Below, in pieces: positions 2,392 to 17,006 of a stretch of 64,000 nucleotides of DNA. The stretch covers positions 1 through 64,000 of the forward strand of contig SVLQ01000012.1 in NCBI GenBank assembly GCA_015067825.1. The letters run 5' to 3'. The notes under the pieces are model-generated. The model did not search any database. It was not told the DNA's origin and worked only from the letters and a program-made list of their open reading frames with translations. Every line of letters starts with the position of its first letter. Position 1 is the first letter of the stretch. The translations under genes were made by a program, and so were the position numbers. The DNA is from Oscillospiraceae bacterium. Lineage in GTDB: Bacteria; Bacillota; Clostridia; Oscillospirales; QAMX01.

Positions 2392-4845
2392 TTATTGGGT
2401 ATATACCGTGACCGGTCCGTAGAGTCCACCTGCGACCGAATCCTTTGCGTATTCCAGCTCTCCGGCAAAATACGGTGAGAGCTCACTTGTCGTCCATTGA
2501 TCGAAATAATCCGTGTGGACGTACCAGTTGGCAGGGGTATTCGTGACGCGGATCTCCAATCGGTTTTCCGTGTCCAGCAAACCTGCCGGGATCCGGAAAC
2601 GATACGGCGGTGCCAAAACTGCGCCCAAGGGACAATCGTTCAAAGTGACTTCTGCCGCAAAACGAACGTCGCCGAGGTCGATCTCGCCCGGCTGACCGCG
2701 CAGCTCCGGCGGGAGAGAGAAGGTTTTTTTGTAAACGCAGCTCCCGGAGTATTCCTTGCCGACCACGCTTTCCCAATCGCCGAAGCGGATGGATACGGTC
2801 TCGGCGGGGTGAGCAACGGTTTTCCATCCGTTCTCGTCGGCGGTGAGCGATAACTCTTTGCGGAAACAAAACTCGCCGGAAAGCGGGATGCTCCACGTAA
2901 ATTCCGGATTGGCTTCCGCCGCAAAAGCATCGCTGCCGAGCAAGATCACGGCCGTTTCGCCGACGGCGAGCGTGAGTTCCAAAATGCCGTTTTCCGCGCG
3001 GAATCGCCGCAGCGAGCCGCTGGCCAGATCCAACAGGTATCCGCTCTCGGCGGGCAGCCGAACCTGGTATCTCCCGTCCTTGCCGCCTTCCCGGAAGAGG
3101 TAGAAGAGCTCGCCGTTTTCCATCCTGCGGTGCATTGCCCGCAAGCCGCTTCCCTCGACCGGCAGAACCGGCCCGAGACCGCCGAGATCATGCGAGACCT
3201 TGCCGCCGCTCTTTTGGAAGCGGAGGAGGATCTCTTTGGTTTCCGGTGGAAGATCGGCGTTTTCGGGGATCACGATACGGCGGTAGACGGCACTGCCGAT
3301 GCGAAGGCAGCCGTCGTCGCTCCCAACGGCCGCTTGCAGCACGTCATCGTCGACGACGTCAAAATCGACGAGCCGATCTTCGAGTGCTCGGCCGAGGGTG
3401 TCGAAGGAAGCTGCTGCGGCTTCGGCGTGCAGACCGCCGAGAAAATCGCGGATCGGGTAGTAAAGCGCCGTCTCACAAACACGCTTACCGAGCGCGGAGA
3501 CGTACGACAACCGCTCCATGTACGGGTTGAATTGGCAAAAATAGCGGTGATAGATCTGATCTTGCGTGAAAATCGGCAGCTCCTGCGCGAGCAGTGCGTC
3601 CTTTCGGCCGAGCGGGAAATTGAAAATATTGAAGACGGAGACCCCGCGAACGGCCAGATATCCGACGGTGTAGCGCATGACGTCGTACGTCAGCCCCGGG
3701 CCGGCGACGCCGAAAATCTCGGCCATCGCGAGATCCGTGCCGTTTTGCGCGGCGGCGGAGGCGGCGTACCGCGGGAAAAAGCCGTTGTACGCGTTCAGTT
3801 CGTCCTTCGTTTTCGTCCGGTCTTCGGGGTAGACCTGCCGCCAGATCACGTCGATGCCGGGCAGATCCATGCAGCGCAGCGCACGCATTAAATGGAAGTT
3901 TGCGCCGCCGCGGATGCAGCCGAGCGGGGCGTGGTCGACGTCCATGTGGCCGATAAAGGCCATGCCGTGCGCGTTGGCCCACCGCTTGCACGGGAGCAAA
4001 AAATGCTCGCACAGCATCCGGCTGCACAGATCGTACCACCGCTGCAAGATCTGTACGGTTTCTTTGGTCGGTGCGATTCGGTGGGCGAGCAGCGGCAGAT
4101 GCGGCAAGATCGATTCGCCGTAGAGGGCTTCGTACTGTTCCGCCAGCTCTTGGCGGAAGGCATTTGCAGGGGCTTTGGGCTCGTCGGTGAACACGGCCGT
4201 CGCGGTCTGACCGAGTGCGGACGGCATGGCGTCGGCGTAGCCCTGATGGGTGATCTTGATAAAATATTCTGTGGCGGCCTTATCGAGAAGATCGGGATAA
4301 TCGGTTGCCCCGCAGATCTCCTGCGCGACCGTATATTCCGTTACAACACCGTTTTCGGTAAAACGGTACCCGTCGGCGATCCTCTCTTTGTCCTGCCAAA
4401 ACGACGCCAAAACCTCCGGAGAAGACGTCTGGTATACGTCCCCGGCGAAAACGGCACGCTCTGTGACCCGCAGAACCTGCCGAGCGTATTCCGGGTGATC
4501 CCGGAGAACTCTGCCGCAGGCGCCGCCGGAAGGCCAACCGCCTTCGTCGTAGATCCAGCAGCGCATCCCGAGGGAACCGCCCTTTTCGATCGCGTAGGCG
4601 CACAGCGCGAAGTATTCCGGCGAGAGATAGTCCGGTTCAAGCTTCGTAGGCATGCTGTGCGGACGAAATTCCTTGGGCTCGGGGATGATGCAGAACGCCC
4701 GGATGCCGAGCGCTTGCATCTCGGCAAGCTGCGCGTCGATTCTGTCGCGGGTGCAAACGTCGTTCCATACCCAGTTATATACCGGCGCGCAGGAGATGTT
4801 GGGCGAGAGGAATTTGTCGGTCTGAAATTTGTTGTCAGTTTTCAT
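2392..4845 (-). CDS. Glycoside hydrolase, GH106 (alpha-L-rhamnosidase)-like
   Basis: This 817-residue protein has the architecture of large GH106-type or related orphan glycosidases. The N-terminus has YNWVWNDVCTRDRIDAQL, then a barrel strand with IPEPKEF, and YDEGGWPSG at about 99-107, which matches the YDE-W-G-WPSG signature of that family. The C-terminal 200 residues look like a jelly-roll carbohydrate-binding domain related to the GH2 sugar-binding fold (SGSCVYKKTFSLP ... RLEIRVTNTPANWYV). No signal peptide is present. The ATG at 4845 is preceded by AGTGAGG, while the longer in-frame extension overlaps the permease gene. It lies 22 bp downstream of the permease and 64 bp upstream of the GH20 gene. 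The exact substrate cannot be read from the sequence; rhamnosidase is a family-level guess. Confidence 0.7.
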   Translation of the reverse strand: MKTDNKFQTDKFLSPNISCAPVYNWVWNDVCTRDRIDAQLAEMQALGIRAFCIIPEPKEFRPHSMPTKLEPDYLSPEYFALCAYAIEKGGSLGMRCWIYDEGGWPSGGACGRVLRDHPEYARQVLRVTERAVFAGDVYQTSSPEVLASFWQDKERIADGYRFTENGVVTEYTVAQEICGATDYPDLLDKAATEYFIKITHQGYADAMPSALGQTATAVFTDEPKAPANAFRQELAEQYEALYGESILPHLPLLAHRIAPTKETVQILQRWYDLCSRMLCEHFLLPCKRWANAHGMAFIGHMDVDHAPLGCIRGGANFHLMRALRCMDLPGIDVIWRQVYPEDRTKTKDELNAYNGFFPRYAASAAAQNGTDLAMAEIFGVAGPGLTYDVMRYTVGYLAVRGVSVFNIFNFPLGRKDALLAQELPIFTQDQIYHRYFCQFNPYMERLSYVSALGKRVCETALYYPIRDFLGGLHAEAAAASFDTLGRALEDRLVDFDVVDDDVLQAAVGSDDGCLRIGSAVYRRIVIPENADLPPETKEILLRFQKSGGKVSHDLGGLGPVLPVEGSGLRAMHRRMENGELFYLFREGGKDGRYQVRLPAESGYLLDLASGSLRRFRAENGILELTLAVGETAVILLGSDAFAAEANPEFTWSIPLSGEFCFRKELSLTADENGWKTVAHPAETVSIRFGDWESVVGKEYSGSCVYKKTFSLPPELRGQPGEIDLGDVRFAAEVTLNDCPLGAVLAPPYRFRIPAGLLDTENRLEIRVTNTPANWYVHTDYFDQWTTSELSPYFAGELEYAKDSVAGGLYGPVTVYTQ

Positions 4846-4867
4846 GTGCAAAACCTCACTTTCAAAC

Positions 4868-6046
4868 CTAAGCCTCCGGGTCGAACCGTCCCTGCTTTTT
4901 GATCCGGCGCACAAAGGCGAGCAGCGCGGCGACCATGATCGCGTAAAGGATCGCCAGTACGACGGGGTATACGCCGATACCGAACAGGCGGTTTACCAGG
5001 CTGATGAGCGGCGGCGCGAGCATAACGCCCATGTAGGCGAAGGCGATCTGCGAGCCGATGATGGCCTGCGACAAGTCTTTGCCAAAATTGTGCGGAGTCA
5101 GATGCATCATGTTCGGATAAATCGAACCGTTGCCAAGTCCGATGAAGAAGAGCGCGGCAACCGCCACCGTGCCCGGCAACGGAAGCAGCATGACGACGAT
5201 GGCCGGTGCGAGGATCAGCGTGCCGATGGCAATGCGGTTCCACGTTTTGATCTTTTCGGCCAGAATGCCGGAAACAAAACGCCCGATCGACATGCCGGCG
5301 TAGTAGATACTCAAAGCGAGAGCACCGTCTTTGGCCTGAAAATTCTTGGCCATAACGAGATACGTGCTGCCCCAAATACCACAGGCGTATTCGATGGCGT
5401 TGGTGGCCAGCATGATGATCCAGACCAGCCGCACGTCCCGTTTTTTCGCCTGCTGCAAAAGCGAGAGGTTTGTGGCCGGTTCGTCTGCGGCTTGGTCGGC
5501 GGCAGCGGTCTTTTTCCAAAGCGGAAGGGAGACGATCAGCAGAAGCGTGATCGCCGCCTGTACGTAAAACGCGTAGCGATATCCCGCGCGCCAGCCTACG
5601 TTCGATAAGGCTTGCACCATCAGATATGGGCTGAGCGTGACGCCGATCCCGTAGAAGCAGTGCAGGAAGTTCATCTGACTGGCTTTGTAGTGGAGCGCGA
5701 CGTAGTTGTTGAGTCCGGCATCGATCGCGCCGGCACCGAATCCGACGACGATCGATAGGGGCAGCATGACCCAAAAAGAGGGGGCCACCGAGAAACCAAA
5801 CAGGGCGGCTGCCGTCATTGCCGTGCTGAAGGCGGTCACTTTGGCCGTACCCAGCTTGTTAAGAAGTCCCGTGCTGAACATACTCGAGAGCACCGTGCAG
5901 CCGGAGATCAGGAACGTGAGAATGCTCACAGCCTCGACCGGAACACCGATCTCAACGTGGGCTGCGGGCCAGGCCGAACCGATTAGGGAATCGGGGACGC
6001 CGAGACCGATAAATGCGATGTAGATCACGACCAGTAAGAATACCAT
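4868..6046 (-). CDS. MFS transporter, probable sugar permease
   Basis: This 392-residue hydrophobic protein has about twelve predicted membrane helices and the layout of the FHS/sugar branch of the major facilitator superfamily. The first helix (MVFLLVVIYIAFIGLGVPDSL) carries the GxxD-S pattern seen in such permeases, and NKLGTAKV fits the loop 2-3 motif. A central cytoplasmic loop (KKTAAADQAADEP) separates the two six-helix halves. Residues in the fourth to fifth helices (GFGAGAIDAGLNNYVA) resemble fucose-permease relatives. As first gene of the operon with GH106-like and GH20 enzymes it probably imports the oligosaccharide those enzymes act on. The ATG at 6046 has only a weak GGTGAT upstream, so the start is less certain than the family. 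Confidence 0.82.
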   Translation of the reverse strand: MVFLLVVIYIAFIGLGVPDSLIGSAWPAAHVEIGVPVEAVSILTFLISGCTVLSSMFSTGLLNKLGTAKVTAFSTAMTAAALFGFSVAPSFWVMLPLSIVVGFGAGAIDAGLNNYVALHYKASQMNFLHCFYGIGVTLSPYLMVQALSNVGWRAGYRYAFYVQAAITLLLIVSLPLWKKTAAADQAADEPATNLSLLQQAKKRDVRLVWIIMLATNAIEYACGIWGSTYLVMAKNFQAKDGALALSIYYAGMSIGRFVSGILAEKIKTWNRIAIGTLILAPAIVVMLLPLPGTVAVAALFFIGLGNGSIYPNMMHLTPHNFGKDLSQAIIGSQIAFAYMGVMLAPPLISLVNRLFGIGVYPVVLAILYAIMVAALLAFVRRIKKQGRFDPEA

Positions 6047-6073
6047 ATTATCACCGTTTATCGTTTTGAACTC

Positions 6074-6108
6074 GCGAAGATCTCCGGGAAAATGCGGAGA
6101 AGATTCGC
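6074..6108. promoter_or_regulatory. Imperfect inverted repeat in the leader of the permease operon
   Basis: GCGAAGATCTCCG (6074-6086) and CGGAGAAGATTCGC (6095-6108) face each other across eight bases, between the minus-strand -10 box and the permease ATG. It could be an operator or a leader RNA stem; nothing distinguishes these. Confidence 0.4.
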
Positions 6109-6117
6109 AACGATATT

Positions 6118-6146
6118 ATTATAACATAAAATAAACCGCATTGGAA
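6118..6146 (-). promoter_or_regulatory. Extended -10 promoter of the permease/glycosidase operon
   Basis: The minus strand reads TGTTATAAT (6126-6118), a consensus extended -10 element, with a poor -35 (TTCCAA, 6146-6141) 17 bp upstream. Weak -35 contact is compatible with an activator. Confidence 0.55.
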
Positions 6147-6200
6147 GAAGGACTCGCCGATGTTGGGCATACGGCAATGTTGGACGACGGCGGATTCTTT

Positions 6201-6235
6201 TTCAACTGCCAAAAAAATGGCGTTTGGCAGTTGAA
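6201..6235. promoter_or_regulatory. 13-bp perfect inverted repeat overlapping the dnaB promoter
   Basis: TTCAACTGCCAAA (6201-6213) is mirrored by TTTGGCAGTTGAA (6223-6235) across nine bases. The right arm contains five of the six bases of the -35 box TTGAAT at 6231-6236. The repeat lies between the divergent permease operon and dnaB and could control either. It lacks a good T run, so terminator function is unlikely. Confidence 0.5.
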
Positions 6236-6259
6236 TTTTGAGAAAAAATTATGTATAAT
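6231..6259 (+). promoter_or_regulatory. Sigma-A promoter of dnaB-tilS
   Basis: TTGAAT (6231-6236) and TATAAT (6254-6259) are 17 bp apart, about 67 bp upstream of the dnaB start. Confidence 0.75.
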
Positions 6260-6326
6260 ATAAATATCTATCGCCACTTCTGCGGAAGACGGCGAAATCG
6301 AAAAATCGACGAGAGGAGGCGGCGTT

Positions 6327-7649
6327 TTGGAAGACCTGGTACTGCGGCGGCAGCCGTACAGCGCAGAAGCAGAGCAATCGGTGCTCGGCAGTCTGCTGAT
6401 CGACCCGGCGTGCATTTCCGAAGCGATCGAAATCGTCTCTGCCGACGATTTTTATATCCCCGAAAACAAAAAGATCTTTGAAACGATGACCTCTATGTAT
6501 ACGCTCGGGCAGAAGATCGACCCGGTCATCCTGCTCGACGAGCTGAAAAGCCGCGAGATCTACGACGAAGCCGGCGGCAGAGCCTACCTTTATAAGCTCG
6601 TGGAGATCACGCCGACGGCTGCCAACGTCAAGGCGTACGCGGAGATCGTGCGGGCGAAGGCGAAACTAAGAAAGCTCGCGAAGGTGACGGGCGAGGCCAA
6701 CGAACGCGCGCTGGCCGAAGCCGGCGAGGTCAACGACCTTATCGAGTCGCTTGAGCAGCAGCTGTTTGAGATGCGCGGCGAGAAGACCGGCCAGGGCCTG
6801 CAGCACATCCGCTCGGCGATCATGGATTCGATCGAGATCTTAAACGAACTGTCCAAAACCAAAGGCAGCATGCCCGGTTTGCCCACGGGCTTTTCCGACC
6901 TCGACTATTATATCACCGGTCTGAATAAATCCGACCTCGTGCTTTTGGCGGCGCGTCCCGGTATCGGCAAGACCTCGGTCGCGCTCAACATCGCGCGCAA
7001 TGCCGCCAAAGAGGGCAAAAATATCGCAATCTTCAACCTCGAAATGGGCCGCACGCAGCTTGTGCAGCGTATGCTTTCCAGCGAGGGCATGATCGACCTC
7101 AAAAAAATCAAGACCGCCGACCTCACCGACGACGAATGGGATCGCCTTGCGCAGGCGTCCAAGGCACTGTCGGCGACGCCGATCTATATCGACGATACAG
7201 CCAACATTACCGTTGCCGAAATCAAATCGCGGTGCCGCCGTCTGCCTAATCTCGGCCTTGTCGTCATCGACTATCTGCAGCTCATCAGCGATACGCGCAA
7301 GGACGGCAACCGCCAGCTCGGTGTTTCCGAGATCTCACGTTCGCTCAAGATCATGGCCAAGGAGCTCAACATCCCGATCCTCTGCCTCTCGCAGCTTTCG
7401 CGTGCGTCCGACCAGCGCAAAGAGCGCCCGCGTCTTTCCGACCTTCGCGACTCCGGTGCGATCGAACAGGACGCCGATATCGTGCTCTTTTTGTACAAAG
7501 ACGAAGATTATAACCCCGATACCGCCGACAAAAACGTCTGCGAGTGTATCATTGCCAAAAACCGCCACGGCCAGACCAATACGGTGAAATTCCGTTGGCT
7601 CGGCCAGTTCACGCGTTTTGTCACGCAGGATAACCGCCATGCCGAATGA
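6327..7649 (+). CDS. dnaB: Replicative DNA helicase DnaB
   Basis: This 440-residue protein is the hexameric helicase that unwinds DNA at the fork (DnaC in Bacillus naming). Residues 8-110 are the helical N-terminal domain (RRQPYSAEAEQSVLGSLL), followed by a linker and the RecA-like motor with Walker A AARPGIGKTS at about 209-217, the VVIDYLQL Walker B region, PILCLSQLSR, and the DLRDSGAIEQDAD and KNRHGQT segments typical of the family. Length is normal. The start is a TTG at 6327 preceded by AGGAGG at 6314-6319. Its 3' end overlaps tilS by 11 bases, so the two are co-transcribed. Confidence 0.97.
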   Translation: MEDLVLRRQPYSAEAEQSVLGSLLIDPACISEAIEIVSADDFYIPENKKIFETMTSMYTLGQKIDPVILLDELKSREIYDEAGGRAYLYKLVEITPTAANVKAYAEIVRAKAKLRKLAKVTGEANERALAEAGEVNDLIESLEQQLFEMRGEKTGQGLQHIRSAIMDSIEILNELSKTKGSMPGLPTGFSDLDYYITGLNKSDLVLLAARPGIGKTSVALNIARNAAKEGKNIAIFNLEMGRTQLVQRMLSSEGMIDLKKIKTADLTDDEWDRLAQASKALSATPIYIDDTANITVAEIKSRCRRLPNLGLVVIDYLQLISDTRKDGNRQLGVSEISRSLKIMAKELNIPILCLSQLSRASDQRKERPRLSDLRDSGAIEQDADIVLFLYKDEDYNPDTADKNVCECIIAKNRHGQTNTVKFRWLGQFTRFVTQDNRHAE

Positions 7650-14045: not shown

Positions 14046-14050
14046 TTCCA

Positions 14051-14089
14051 AAACACCCGCAGACCCGATTTCGTCTGCGGGTGTTTTTT
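14051..14089 (+). terminator. Rho-independent terminator after the DegT-family gene
   Basis: A 14-bp GC-rich stem (14051-14064 with 14073-14086) merges into a run of six T ending at 14089. Confidence 0.92.
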
Positions 14090-14169
14090 CAAAAAAATCT
14101 TCCGCGCGCACAACAAAACCGTTCCCTTATGTGTATTCCTTATAGAAGACCGGCGAGGAGGTGAGACCG

Positions 14170-14661
14170 GTGGCAGAGAAGCATCGGCTGCAGACGAGCG
14201 ATTTTGCCGCGATCTACAATCGGCATTTCACACGGATCTACCGTGTGTGCTTTTTATACATGAAAAACAGAAGTGATGCGGAGGACGCCGTTTCAACGGT
14301 GTTTTTAAAGCTTTGCGAACGGAAAAAGCCGTTTGCCTCGGCAGAGCACGAGCTCGGCTGGCTGATCGTCTGTGCGCAGAACGTGTGCAAAAACGAACTC
14401 CGAAAGAAGCACCGTTCGCACCTGCCGATCGACGCCGCTTACGATCTCGCCGCCGATTCGGCGACCGACGAAACGCTGCCGGTGCTCTTTTCACTGCCGG
14501 AGAAGTACAAAGCGGCGCTGTACCTCTACTACTACGAGGGCTACTCCTCGGCGCAGACCGCACAGATCCTTGGGAAAAAGGAATCGACGGTGCGCACATG
14601 GTTGGCAAAGGGGCGCACACTTCTGAAAGAAAAACTCACGGATGCGGAAGGAAGTGTTTAG
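14170..14661 (+). CDS. ECF-type RNA polymerase sigma factor
   Basis: This 163-residue sigma-70 family protein has region 2 (YNRHFTRIYRVCFLYMKNRSDAEDAVSTVFLKL, about residues 13-45) and region 4 (LPEKYKAALYLYYYEGYSSAQTAQILGKKESTVRTWLAKGR, about 107-147) and no region 3, as in ECF sigma factors. The GTG at 14170 is preferred over the one at 14161, which is part of the ribosome binding site GAGGAGGTGAG. The next gene begins two bases after its stop and has a single membrane helix, the usual arrangement of a sigma factor with its membrane-bound inhibitor. The signal is probably envelope related, as three exported proteins follow. Confidence 0.92.
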   Translation: MAEKHRLQTSDFAAIYNRHFTRIYRVCFLYMKNRSDAEDAVSTVFLKLCERKKPFASAEHELGWLIVCAQNVCKNELRKKHRSHLPIDAAYDLAADSATDETLPVLFSLPEKYKAALYLYYYEGYSSAQTAQILGKKESTVRTWLAKGRTLLKEKLTDAEGSV

Positions 14662-14662
14662 G

Positions 14663-15688
14663 ATGACGGAAGAACGGTTGGATCAAACGATCAAAACGGC
14701 GTTTCAGGCGCTTTCGCCCGATGATTTCGCCAAAACGCGCGTTTGGGCAAAGGTGGAGGCAAAAGCCGCCGCACCGAAAAAAGCAAAATTTGCGTGGATC
14801 AAGTACGCTGTCCCGGCTGTGCTTTGTGCGCTTGTTGCAGTTGCGGGTGGACGCGGCTTGCTGGATGGCAGATTGGGTATCGACAAACTTGGGATTCATA
14901 AAAATGTGTCGGACAATGAGACGACTGGTGAGACGGCCGCGACGGACGAAGCCGTGACCGAAATGGCGACTTACCCGGCGACTGCTATGACCACGATCCC
15001 CGAAGGTGGGATCGCGACCTCGACGGTGCCGATGGGGAGTCAACTGGACGCGTACCTTCTGAGCGAAACGGACAACCTGATCACGGTCGGCGGCAAGCGT
15101 TATCTGCTCAGCTGGGGCGCGGAGGGCACGGGCGAGATCATCGGCACGGTCGAGGATGCGACGGCGACCGAACTGGTCGGCTGGGACGTGTACGCGACCG
15201 ACGTCGACGGCATGGTGGCGATCAAATGCTACGAGCAGCCGCTGGCGGCGCAGCAATGGCTGGTTTACCGCTACGTCGGCACGGTCGACGGCGATAGTAC
15301 GATGTCCGCCTGGCTGGCAGAATACGGGATCACGGCCGACACGGTGGAATCGATCCTCTTAAGTGACGACAGGCTGTCACGGGTCGTGAACGAGGACGTG
15401 CAGACGAAGATCATTCCGTGCCGTGTGACGATCACGGACAAGGCGAGAATTGCGACCATTTTAGCGGCGCTTTCTGCGGCGGAAGAAGATCTGTCGGAGG
15501 TCTGGAGCCGGCTGGAATCGCATTCGGGCGGACTGGATACGATCAAACTGGAGATCACGCTGAAGTCGAGCTCGCGGCGTATCGATCTTGCGCTGTGGCC
15601 GCACCTCAACTGCCTGCCGATGGGCTACGTGGCAGATGAGGCGCTGGAAGAATGTTTGGTGATTATGATTGATGAGGAGTGGAACTGA
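14663..15688 (+). CDS. Probable membrane-bound anti-sigma factor with novel ectodomain
   Basis: This 341-residue protein has a short cytoplasmic start (MTEERLDQTIKTAFQALSPD), which resembles sigma-binding tails but lacks a zinc-binding HxxxCxxC, then one membrane helix at about 50-66 and a long extracellular part. A Thr/Ala-rich linker leads to a globular domain from about residue 125. That domain contains GGKRYLLSWGAEG, VYATDVDGMVAIK, WLVYRYVG and a conserved TITDKARIATIL, and is recognisably related to the next gene product. The start is the ATG at 14663 after AAGGAAG. Its role as anti-sigma is inferred from coupling to the ECF gene; the ectodomain family is unknown to me. Confidence 0.72.
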   Translation: MTEERLDQTIKTAFQALSPDDFAKTRVWAKVEAKAAAPKKAKFAWIKYAVPAVLCALVAVAGGRGLLDGRLGIDKLGIHKNVSDNETTGETAATDEAVTEMATYPATAMTTIPEGGIATSTVPMGSQLDAYLLSETDNLITVGGKRYLLSWGAEGTGEIIGTVEDATATELVGWDVYATDVDGMVAIKCYEQPLAAQQWLVYRYVGTVDGDSTMSAWLAEYGITADTVESILLSDDRLSRVVNEDVQTKIIPCRVTITDKARIATILAALSAAEEDLSEVWSRLESHSGGLDTIKLEITLKSSSRRIDLALWPHLNCLPMGYVADEALEECLVIMIDEEWN

Positions 15689-15689
15689 T

Positions 15690-16469
15690 ATGAAGAATCG
15701 TGGTTGGAAACAACGTTTTGTTTGGATTTTGGTGCTTGTGCCGATGCTGCTGACGTTTGGCTGCGGAACAAAGGATGCCGAACAGACCACGGAAGCGACG
15801 GGGGAAACCGGCCGTGCGATGACCGAACTCGGCACCGAACCTGCGATCGGCTATGTGCAGATCGGTGACGATCAGATCACCGTCAACGGACAACTGTATA
15901 CTGCGGCGGCCCCTTGGGGCGCGAGAACGAATACGGTCGTCGGGATCGTCAGTGCGGCTGATGAGGTGGATCGGCTGGGTGTGGCCGCGTATGCGACGGA
16001 TATCCCCGGCTACGTGCGGGTCGACAACGGCGATCAGTCGTGGACGTACCGCTACGTCGGTGCGGTCGGCGGCGGGACGATGGCCGATTGGATTGCCGCC
16101 TACGGTGTGACGACAGAAACGGTCACGCGCGTGGATCTGCAGGACAAGGCGCGCGACAGCGAAGTGAATGACGGCCAGATCGTCACCTTCACGCCGCACC
16201 GCGCAACCGTGACGGATGCGGCGAAAATCGCAACCCTCTTGGATGCTATGTCTATGCTCCCGCGCGATGCGGCAGGGTATGAAGCGGCCTTGGCAGCGAC
16301 GGAAAAACCGTACGAAGGCCATATCCGTGTGACGCTTTTGCAGTCGAATCCCGACGGCAGCGTGCGCGAGTGGGGCAGCTTCGTCTGGTATCCGAAGCTC
16401 GGCTACGTCAACGACGGCTACAAGACCGATGCGGCGTTTGGCGAGCTGCTGAAATCGCTGCTCGGCTGA
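15690..16469 (+). CDS. Lipoprotein-like paralogue of the anti-sigma ectodomain
   Basis: The 259-residue product begins with a basic and hydrophobic export signal ending in LLTFGCG, an imperfect lipobox at about residue 24. The mature part repeats the pattern of the preceding protein: ITVNGQLYTAAAPWGA, AAYATDIPGYVRVD, WTYRYVGAVGGGTMADWIAAYG and ATVTDAAKIATLLDAM line up with the corresponding segments. It starts two bases after the preceding stop and is certainly co-transcribed. It could compete for the same ligand or act in signal perception. No enzymatic motif is visible. Confidence 0.7.
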   Translation: MKNRGWKQRFVWILVLVPMLLTFGCGTKDAEQTTEATGETGRAMTELGTEPAIGYVQIGDDQITVNGQLYTAAAPWGARTNTVVGIVSAADEVDRLGVAAYATDIPGYVRVDNGDQSWTYRYVGAVGGGTMADWIAAYGVTTETVTRVDLQDKARDSEVNDGQIVTFTPHRATVTDAAKIATLLDAMSMLPRDAAGYEAALAATEKPYEGHIRVTLLQSNPDGSVREWGSFVWYPKLGYVNDGYKTDAAFGELLKSLLG

Positions 16470-16484
16470 TGCGGGGGAAACGGT

Positions 16485-16967
16485 ATGAAATTGAGAATGA
16501 GCCTTTTGCTGGTGGCCTTGCTGCTTTTGCTGCCGGCTGCGGCCTGTCGGGCAGAGTCGCCGCTCGCTGAAAAGCCGCTGGCGGAGATCATGGATGCGCT
16601 GTATGAGCGGGCGACCGCTGAATACGGCTTTGCGCCGACGTGGAACCTTGAACTGATCGACATTCCGATCACGCCGGACAAAAACGACTGGTATTTCGGC
16701 ACAGAGATCGAATACGTCGAAGCGCTTGCTTCGGAATATATCATGATGCCGCCGGCGTACTCGGTCTGTCTGGTGCGGGTGCAGCCGGGCGACGATGCGG
16801 CAGCGATTGCCGAAACTCTGCGGGCAAGTGCCGATCCGTATAAGTGGGTCTGCACGAGTGCCGGTGCCGTTGCGGTCGAGTACAGCGGCGACCTTGTTTT
16901 GTTAGTAATGGCCGAACCGGAGAATACCGAGGCGCTCAGACAGGCGTTTACAGAGCTTTTCAACTGA
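16485..16967 (+). CDS. Small predicted lipoprotein of unknown function
   Basis: This 160-residue protein has a lipoprotein signal (LLLVALLLLLPAAAC, Cys at about 21) and a small mature domain without a family I recognise; it contains EIEYVEALASEYIMMPPAYSVCLVRVQPG and ends in EALRQAFTELFN. It is the last gene of the ECF sigma operon and is followed by a strong terminator. The content and position suggest an envelope function under the sigma factor. Confidence 0.7.
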   Translation: MKLRMSLLLVALLLLLPAAACRAESPLAEKPLAEIMDALYERATAEYGFAPTWNLELIDIPITPDKNDWYFGTEIEYVEALASEYIMMPPAYSVCLVRVQPGDDAAAIAETLRASADPYKWVCTSAGAVAVEYSGDLVLLVMAEPENTEALRQAFTELFN

Positions 16968-17006
16968 AAAAAGCGGTGCGGAACAACTTGTTTCGCACCG
17001 CTTTTT
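16968..17006 (+). terminator. Rho-independent terminator of the ECF sigma operon
   Basis: AAAAAGCGGTGCG (16968-16980) pairs with CGCACCGCTTTTT (16994-17006) and provides its own T run. Confidence 0.9.

Follow-up and report, generated by a model that had tools for sequence, protein, structure and literature searches.

Does a membrane-bound anti-sigma factor keep a separate copy of its own sensing domain, and what would such a copy do? The question is raised by positions 14170-16967 of the window, which is the whole 64,000-nt stretch of Oscillospiraceae DNA analyzed here. This segment is a compact operon of four genes, all on the plus strand and flanked by two strong terminator hairpins. The gene order is ECF sigma factor, single-TM anti-sigma candidate, lipoprotein and small lipoprotein, with intergenic gaps of 1, 1 and 15 nt. 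An earlier sequence-only reading had placed an ECF sigma operon here, and the sigma domains confirm it, with the genes lying where that reading put them.

14050..14087, plus strand: terminator-like hairpin of the upstream aminotransferase-type gene, taken as the left operon boundary (15-bp stem, -26.1 kcal/mol, z -8.1, 0/200 shuffles as stable)
14170..14661, plus strand: ECF sigma factor with sigma region 2 and region 4 (Pfam and NCBIfam matches)
14663..15688, plus strand: anti-sigma candidate, with an N-terminal part of ~45 aa, one TM (~residues 46-65), a Thr-rich linker and an ectodomain of ~200 aa (from the translation)
15068..15685, plus strand: ectodomain copy 1, on the membrane sensor (homology to copy 2)
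15690..16469, plus strand: lipoprotein, with a signal peptide bearing a lipobox-like LTFGC (Cys 25), a Thr-rich linker and ectodomain copy 2 (from the translation)
15861..16466, plus strand: ectodomain copy 2, on the probably tethered lipoprotein (36% identity to copy 1 over alignment A2)
16485..16967, plus strand: small lipoprotein-like protein with a lipobox-like PAAAC, a distant DUF4358 relative (profile-profile match)
16968..17006, plus strand: terminator hairpin closing the operon (18-bp stem, -28.2 kcal/mol, z -7.9, 0/200 shuffles as stable)

Because the spacing is as tight as 1 and 15 nt and two terminator hairpins enclose the genes, the four most likely form one transcript. A simple terminator scanner does not list the hairpin at 14050..14087; in our reading, pairing of its T-run with A's upstream probably hides it. 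A simple promoter scan, whose range excludes ECF promoters, showed none of the sigma-70 type at the operon. The GC content of the four genes is 0.547-0.609, versus 0.579-0.593 in two neighbors and 0.555 in the whole window, and this comparison gives no sign of horizontal acquisition.

The sigma protein has 163 aa from a GTG start at 14170, with an alternative in-frame GTG at 14161. Pfam matches over the cut-off are Sigma70_r4_2 (PF08281, E 8.4e-14) and Sigma70_r2 (PF04542, E 9.9e-10), and the NCBIfam sigma70-ECF superfamily (TIGR02937) scores 64.2 bits with a cut-off of 42.9. The protein is thus of the ECF type, being short with region 2 and region 4 only, and the gene of a membrane protein with one TM starts 1 nt after it.

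The product of that second gene matches no Pfam family at E ≤ 1, so it has neither the DUF4179 nor the DUF3298 of the RsiV type. The hallmark of zinc anti-sigma (ZAS) proteins is a His/Cys zinc motif in the N-terminal domain, and residues 1-45 here contain no Cys or His. Among the first-downstream genes of other ECF operons, residues 1-66 find 14 matches in 95, versus 0 in 123 later genes (E ≤ 0.1). When the TM is left out, the N-terminus still matches 3/95 first-downstream genes, with 0-1/95 in six shuffled controls. These matches to the first genes downstream of ECF sigma genes make the gene 2 product a good anti-sigma candidate.

That this candidate and the next lipoprotein share an ectodomain, as had been claimed, is borne out. 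The two proteins match by blastp at E 3e-25, and the ectodomains alone reach a Smith-Waterman score of 236, against a mean of 34 (sd 5.8, maximum 67) in 2000 shuffles (z 35). By the method of the ECF survey described below, the pair has a z of 39.7. Identity is 34% in alignment A1 and 36% in alignment A2. Shared motifs are GGKRY / NGQLY and TITDKARIATIL / TVTDAAKIATLL, and the motifs are in register in both copies, including YRYVG and TD-x-A-x-IAT-x-L. Among the motifs named earlier, GGK-Y/NGQ-Y and others are present, but WxYRYVG is exact only in the lipoprotein (W-T-YRYVG), as the anti-sigma candidate has W-LV-YRYVG, one residue longer. The outcome that had been named as fatal to the claim was two ectodomains of different structural families. 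This reading, with motifs alike by chance, is refuted by the blastp and both z values and retains next to no probability; the copies are homologous by sequence, and nothing was found in favor of chance. Agreement between the copies is 0.51 at codon position 1 and 0.56 at position 2 versus 0.45 at position 3, which is in line with selection on the proteins.

Similarity might begin upstream of the ectodomain. The TM and signal segments score 38, whereas shuffles average 17.4 and reach that value in 0.04% of cases, and the linkers reach a score found in 0.5% of shuffles, a value biased by the Thr-rich composition. Because real TM segments of other operons also score as high (4/123 against the anti-sigma TM and 1/123 against the lipoprotein segment), a duplicated unit consisting of TM, linker and ectodomain is suggestive only.

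By the lipobox rule, used for genes 3 and 4, both translations read by eye have lipobox-like signal peptides with a Cys, in LTFGC and PAAAC. With such a signal, the twin encoded by gene 3 is most likely tethered, not free. What had been described as a secreted copy of the sensing domain is indeed a duplicate of the sensor ectodomain, but it is probably a membrane-tethered lipoprotein. The twin should sit on the same membrane face as the anti-sigma ectodomain.

The domain could not be named in the sequence-only reading, and no Pfam or NCBIfam family claims it; this namelessness perhaps holds at the sequence level only, as a DUF5301-like fold is possible (see below). No convincing family match appeared in Pfam, NCBIfam or PHROG, and no credible match in the PDB by sequence. 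The whole genome of this organism holds only the two copies. With the lipoprotein as query, 3 of 99 genomes of relatives matched, namely its own, G047 (E 0.0055) and G065 (E 0.0045), the latter two rejected by eye as lipoprotein signal-peptide matches. Profile A1 was run on overlapping order, class and phylum samples, each including the own genome. The order sample (1/394) and the phylum sample (1/398) returned the own genome only, and the class sample returned two of 391, the credible own genome and G715 at E 0.013, whose gene reads by eye as an electron-transfer-flavoprotein subunit and was rejected.

Two pattern scans of genome contigs gave 13 and 55 stretches and one of viral contigs 70, with 0 confirmed in each, and plasmids and phages gave no match (tblastn, E ≤ 0.1). 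Against 2633 ORFs of the fetched loci, the best match of profile A1 was again the electron-transfer-flavoprotein-like protein (L096) at E 0.002, followed by 0.36, and no relative was confirmed. Of all genomes searched, this one alone yielded the domain. Without a relative of the pair outside this genome, there is no conservation argument for function.

Recurrence of the arrangement was surveyed at ECF loci of relatives and of the own genome. Out of 107 loci fetched, 100 were used, all but one (L143) with a sigma ORF; the other seven (L080-L085, L094) were not expected to contain a sigma and were left out. After duplicate removal there were 101 sigma ORFs, 95 with a downstream gene and 76 with a first gene product of 1-2 TM. 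The chains are ORF-based, and some loci stop at contig ends. An ectodomain pair between anti-sigma and neighbor was found in 0 of 58 other ECF gene chains with at least two downstream genes (212 pairs), where downstream neighbors only were compared and the similarity seen is that detectable by Smith-Waterman. The ectodomain-twin arrangement is therefore unusual in the surveyed sample. Literature search results, which gave their sources in part, likewise contained no comparable anti-sigma/lipoprotein ectodomain pair for ECF systems.

Similar pairs did turn up in two survey chains, made of flagellar-rod-like proteins at L137 and short leader-peptide-like proteins at L151; on inspection by eye neither involved an anti-sigma, and both were set aside. 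At L151 (1692-3273, oriented to the sigma gene), four tandem, near-alike short proteins lie downstream of an ECF-like sigma; their GG-type leader-like sequences resemble precursors of peptide natural products. Incidentally, anti-sigma-like proteins of ~1300 aa with one or two TM adjoin ECF sigma genes at four loci of relatives (L125, L129, L119, L124).

The fourth gene does not contain the shared domain, with Smith-Waterman z of -0.4 and 0.9 against the pair and an hhalign P of 0.69. It has no DUF4358 profile match over the curated cut-off. When its family (a 19-row alignment) was compared with a 35-row DUF4358 alignment, P was 2.1e-18 with a probability of 99.0 over 137 columns, signal peptide included, and by this profile comparison its product is distantly related to DUF4358. 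Its relatives occur in 14 of 59 genomes, the own included; the one in the own genome (G000:C4) has DUF4358 at E 0.098, below the cut-off.

That relative belongs to a second ECF operon of the own genome (L077, G000:C4, ~3000-6805, minus strand), with the order ECF sigma, single-TM anti-sigma, DUF4358-like lipoprotein with a long Thr-rich linker, MBOAT-like and DHHW-like. The layout is repeated at L076, L079 and L133. In G000:C4, G002, G004 and G006, a lipoprotein of the fourth-gene type follows the ECF/anti-sigma genes. After it come a polytopic membrane protein and an exported protein, which in G002 and G004 proved to be MBOAT and DHHW and in G000 and G006 were assigned by eye. These four operons share with the present one a candidate single-TM anti-sigma and a lipoprotein of the fourth-gene family, but they have no ectodomain twin, and the operon in the window has no MBOAT or DHHW. 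Recurrence with MBOAT and DHHW is a hint that the group as a whole acts at the cell surface, though not one that bears on the task of the twin. In addition, DUF4358 genes over the curated cut-off lie directly upstream of ECF sigma genes at L126 (G004:C42) and L117 (G005:C20).

Two AlphaFold models of the ectodomain, built from two-row alignments of the same two sequences, are of low confidence (pLDDT 46.6 and 48.6). In both, an all-beta part is followed by a beta/alpha part, which suggests a domain of two lobes. Foldseek gave no match at E ≤ 0.001 for either model; the kinesin, C2 and PCNA structures among its rows were discounted. By VIA, model 1 (pLDDT 46.6) has 4q0y on top (Z 5.0), then C2/FN3 folds. 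The C-terminal lobe of model 2 (pLDDT 48.6) matches 2mct (Z 6.5, rmsd 3.6, 92 aligned) and the clostridial lipoprotein 4r7r (Z 6.0, rmsd 3.5, 103 aligned), and the rows that follow drop to Z 4.9 and 3.5; model 1 matches neither structure.

A link between 2mct and DUF5301 comes from two DUF5301 proteins that match it, at 1.8e-10 and 4.6e-8. DUF5301 (PF17225) itself matches neither ectodomain at E ≤ 10, and a PF17225 search of the own genome found none. Compared profile to profile with 13 DUF5301 rows, the C-terminal lobe reached a P of 0.026, not significant, versus 0.12-0.79 in eight column-shuffled controls. A DUF5301-like fold of the C-terminal lobe is possible, as it appears in one of the two low-confidence models. 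DUF5301 is fused to an M56/BlaR1-type peptidase in three of four longer proteins scanned (L217, L222, L224), and other members are short separate proteins. Since it occurs in both forms, the sharing of a domain between a sensor and a separate protein has a parallel, although the operon ectodomains match no Pfam family at E ≤ 10.

Known systems resemble the operon in part, as far as the available portions of the sources tell. In Bacillus, the single-TM anti-sigma factors RsiV (of sigma-V) and RsiP (of sigma-P) are destroyed by site-1 and then site-2 cleavage; RsiV binds lysozyme directly, and the sensor protein PbpP of the sigma-P system is encoded immediately downstream (PMC8092216). The operon shares with them an ECF sigma and a candidate single-TM anti-sigma, and with sigma-P also a gene immediately downstream, but it has no DUF4179 or DUF3298, and its downstream protein is an ectodomain paralogue, not a penicillin-binding protein. 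RsgI anti-sigma factors of Clostridium thermocellum SigI/RsgI carry CBM (e.g., CBM3, CBM42), GH10, PA14 or unknown sensor domains (PMC12203970). These extracellular sensor domains are divergent and partly known modules, whereas the ectodomain here has no CBM, GH or PA14 match, and sigma-I belongs to a different sigma group from the ECF sigma of the window. The outer sensor domain of BlaR1 is structurally homologous to secreted class D beta-lactamases (PMC5957439), so there too a membrane sensor has an outer domain homologous to a separate protein, but the operon has no M56 protease and no beta-lactamase family in Pfam.

Judged from the sequence, the operon most likely encodes an envelope-sensing ECF module with a sensory pair, in which the twin would act as co-receptor or ligand competitor. 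Counted in support are the sigma domains, the single TM, the N-terminal similarity, the ectodomain homology, and the spacing with the hairpins. Our best explanation, to which we lean without calling it probable, is that the extracytoplasmic domain of the anti-sigma was duplicated into a separate lipoprotein, and that the twin joins the same sensing step by pairing or ligand competition. If established ECF biology applies, the sigma factor would be held by the N-terminal part of the anti-sigma and set free when the anti-sigma is lost through regulated proteolysis upon sensing, as with RsiV and RsiP. The least certain steps are that the ectodomain may sense an envelope ligand or partner, that the co-expressed tethered twin may pair with the anti-sigma ectodomain or compete for the ligand, and that it may thereby set the threshold of site-1 cleavage and give feedback. 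The full design, in which the twin is a duplicated anti-sigma that lost the sigma-binding part, exchanged its anchor for a lipoprotein signal, and gates proteolysis of its parent by pairing or competition, is unlikely in all its details.

Contact between the copies would not be needed if the first job of the domain were envelope binding by the lipoprotein, and the anti-sigma had borrowed the domain so that the ligand switches the operon on. This account is possible, if doubtful: the varied modules of RsgI and the presence of DUF5301 in both M56/BlaR1-type membrane proteins and short separate proteins speak for it, but Pfam and NCBIfam searches found no enzymatic or binding signature in the ectodomain, and no free relatives of the domain were found elsewhere to show an ancestral role. 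A second copy with no signalling role, left by a tandem duplication specific to the lineage and either drifting or retained by chance, would fit a domain seen in no other searched genome and the identity of only 34-36% between copies. Against such an incidental paralogue, which we consider rather unlikely, neither copy has lost its open frame, the motifs remain in register, codon positions 1 and 2 are more alike than position 3, and in both copies the export or anchor signals and the tight coupling are preserved.

ECF systems are very common in bacteria, and most anti-sigma ectodomains have no known ligand. A homologous pair in one operon offers a handle on this problem, as the purified lipoprotein could be a soluble stand-in for the sensor, making pairing or competition directly testable. 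A decoy or co-receptor feedback design, if true, would be one for which no ECF counterpart surfaced in literature search results that gave their sources in part. If the twin gates cleavage, partial duplication of a sensor gene would have produced a simple evolved feedback device.
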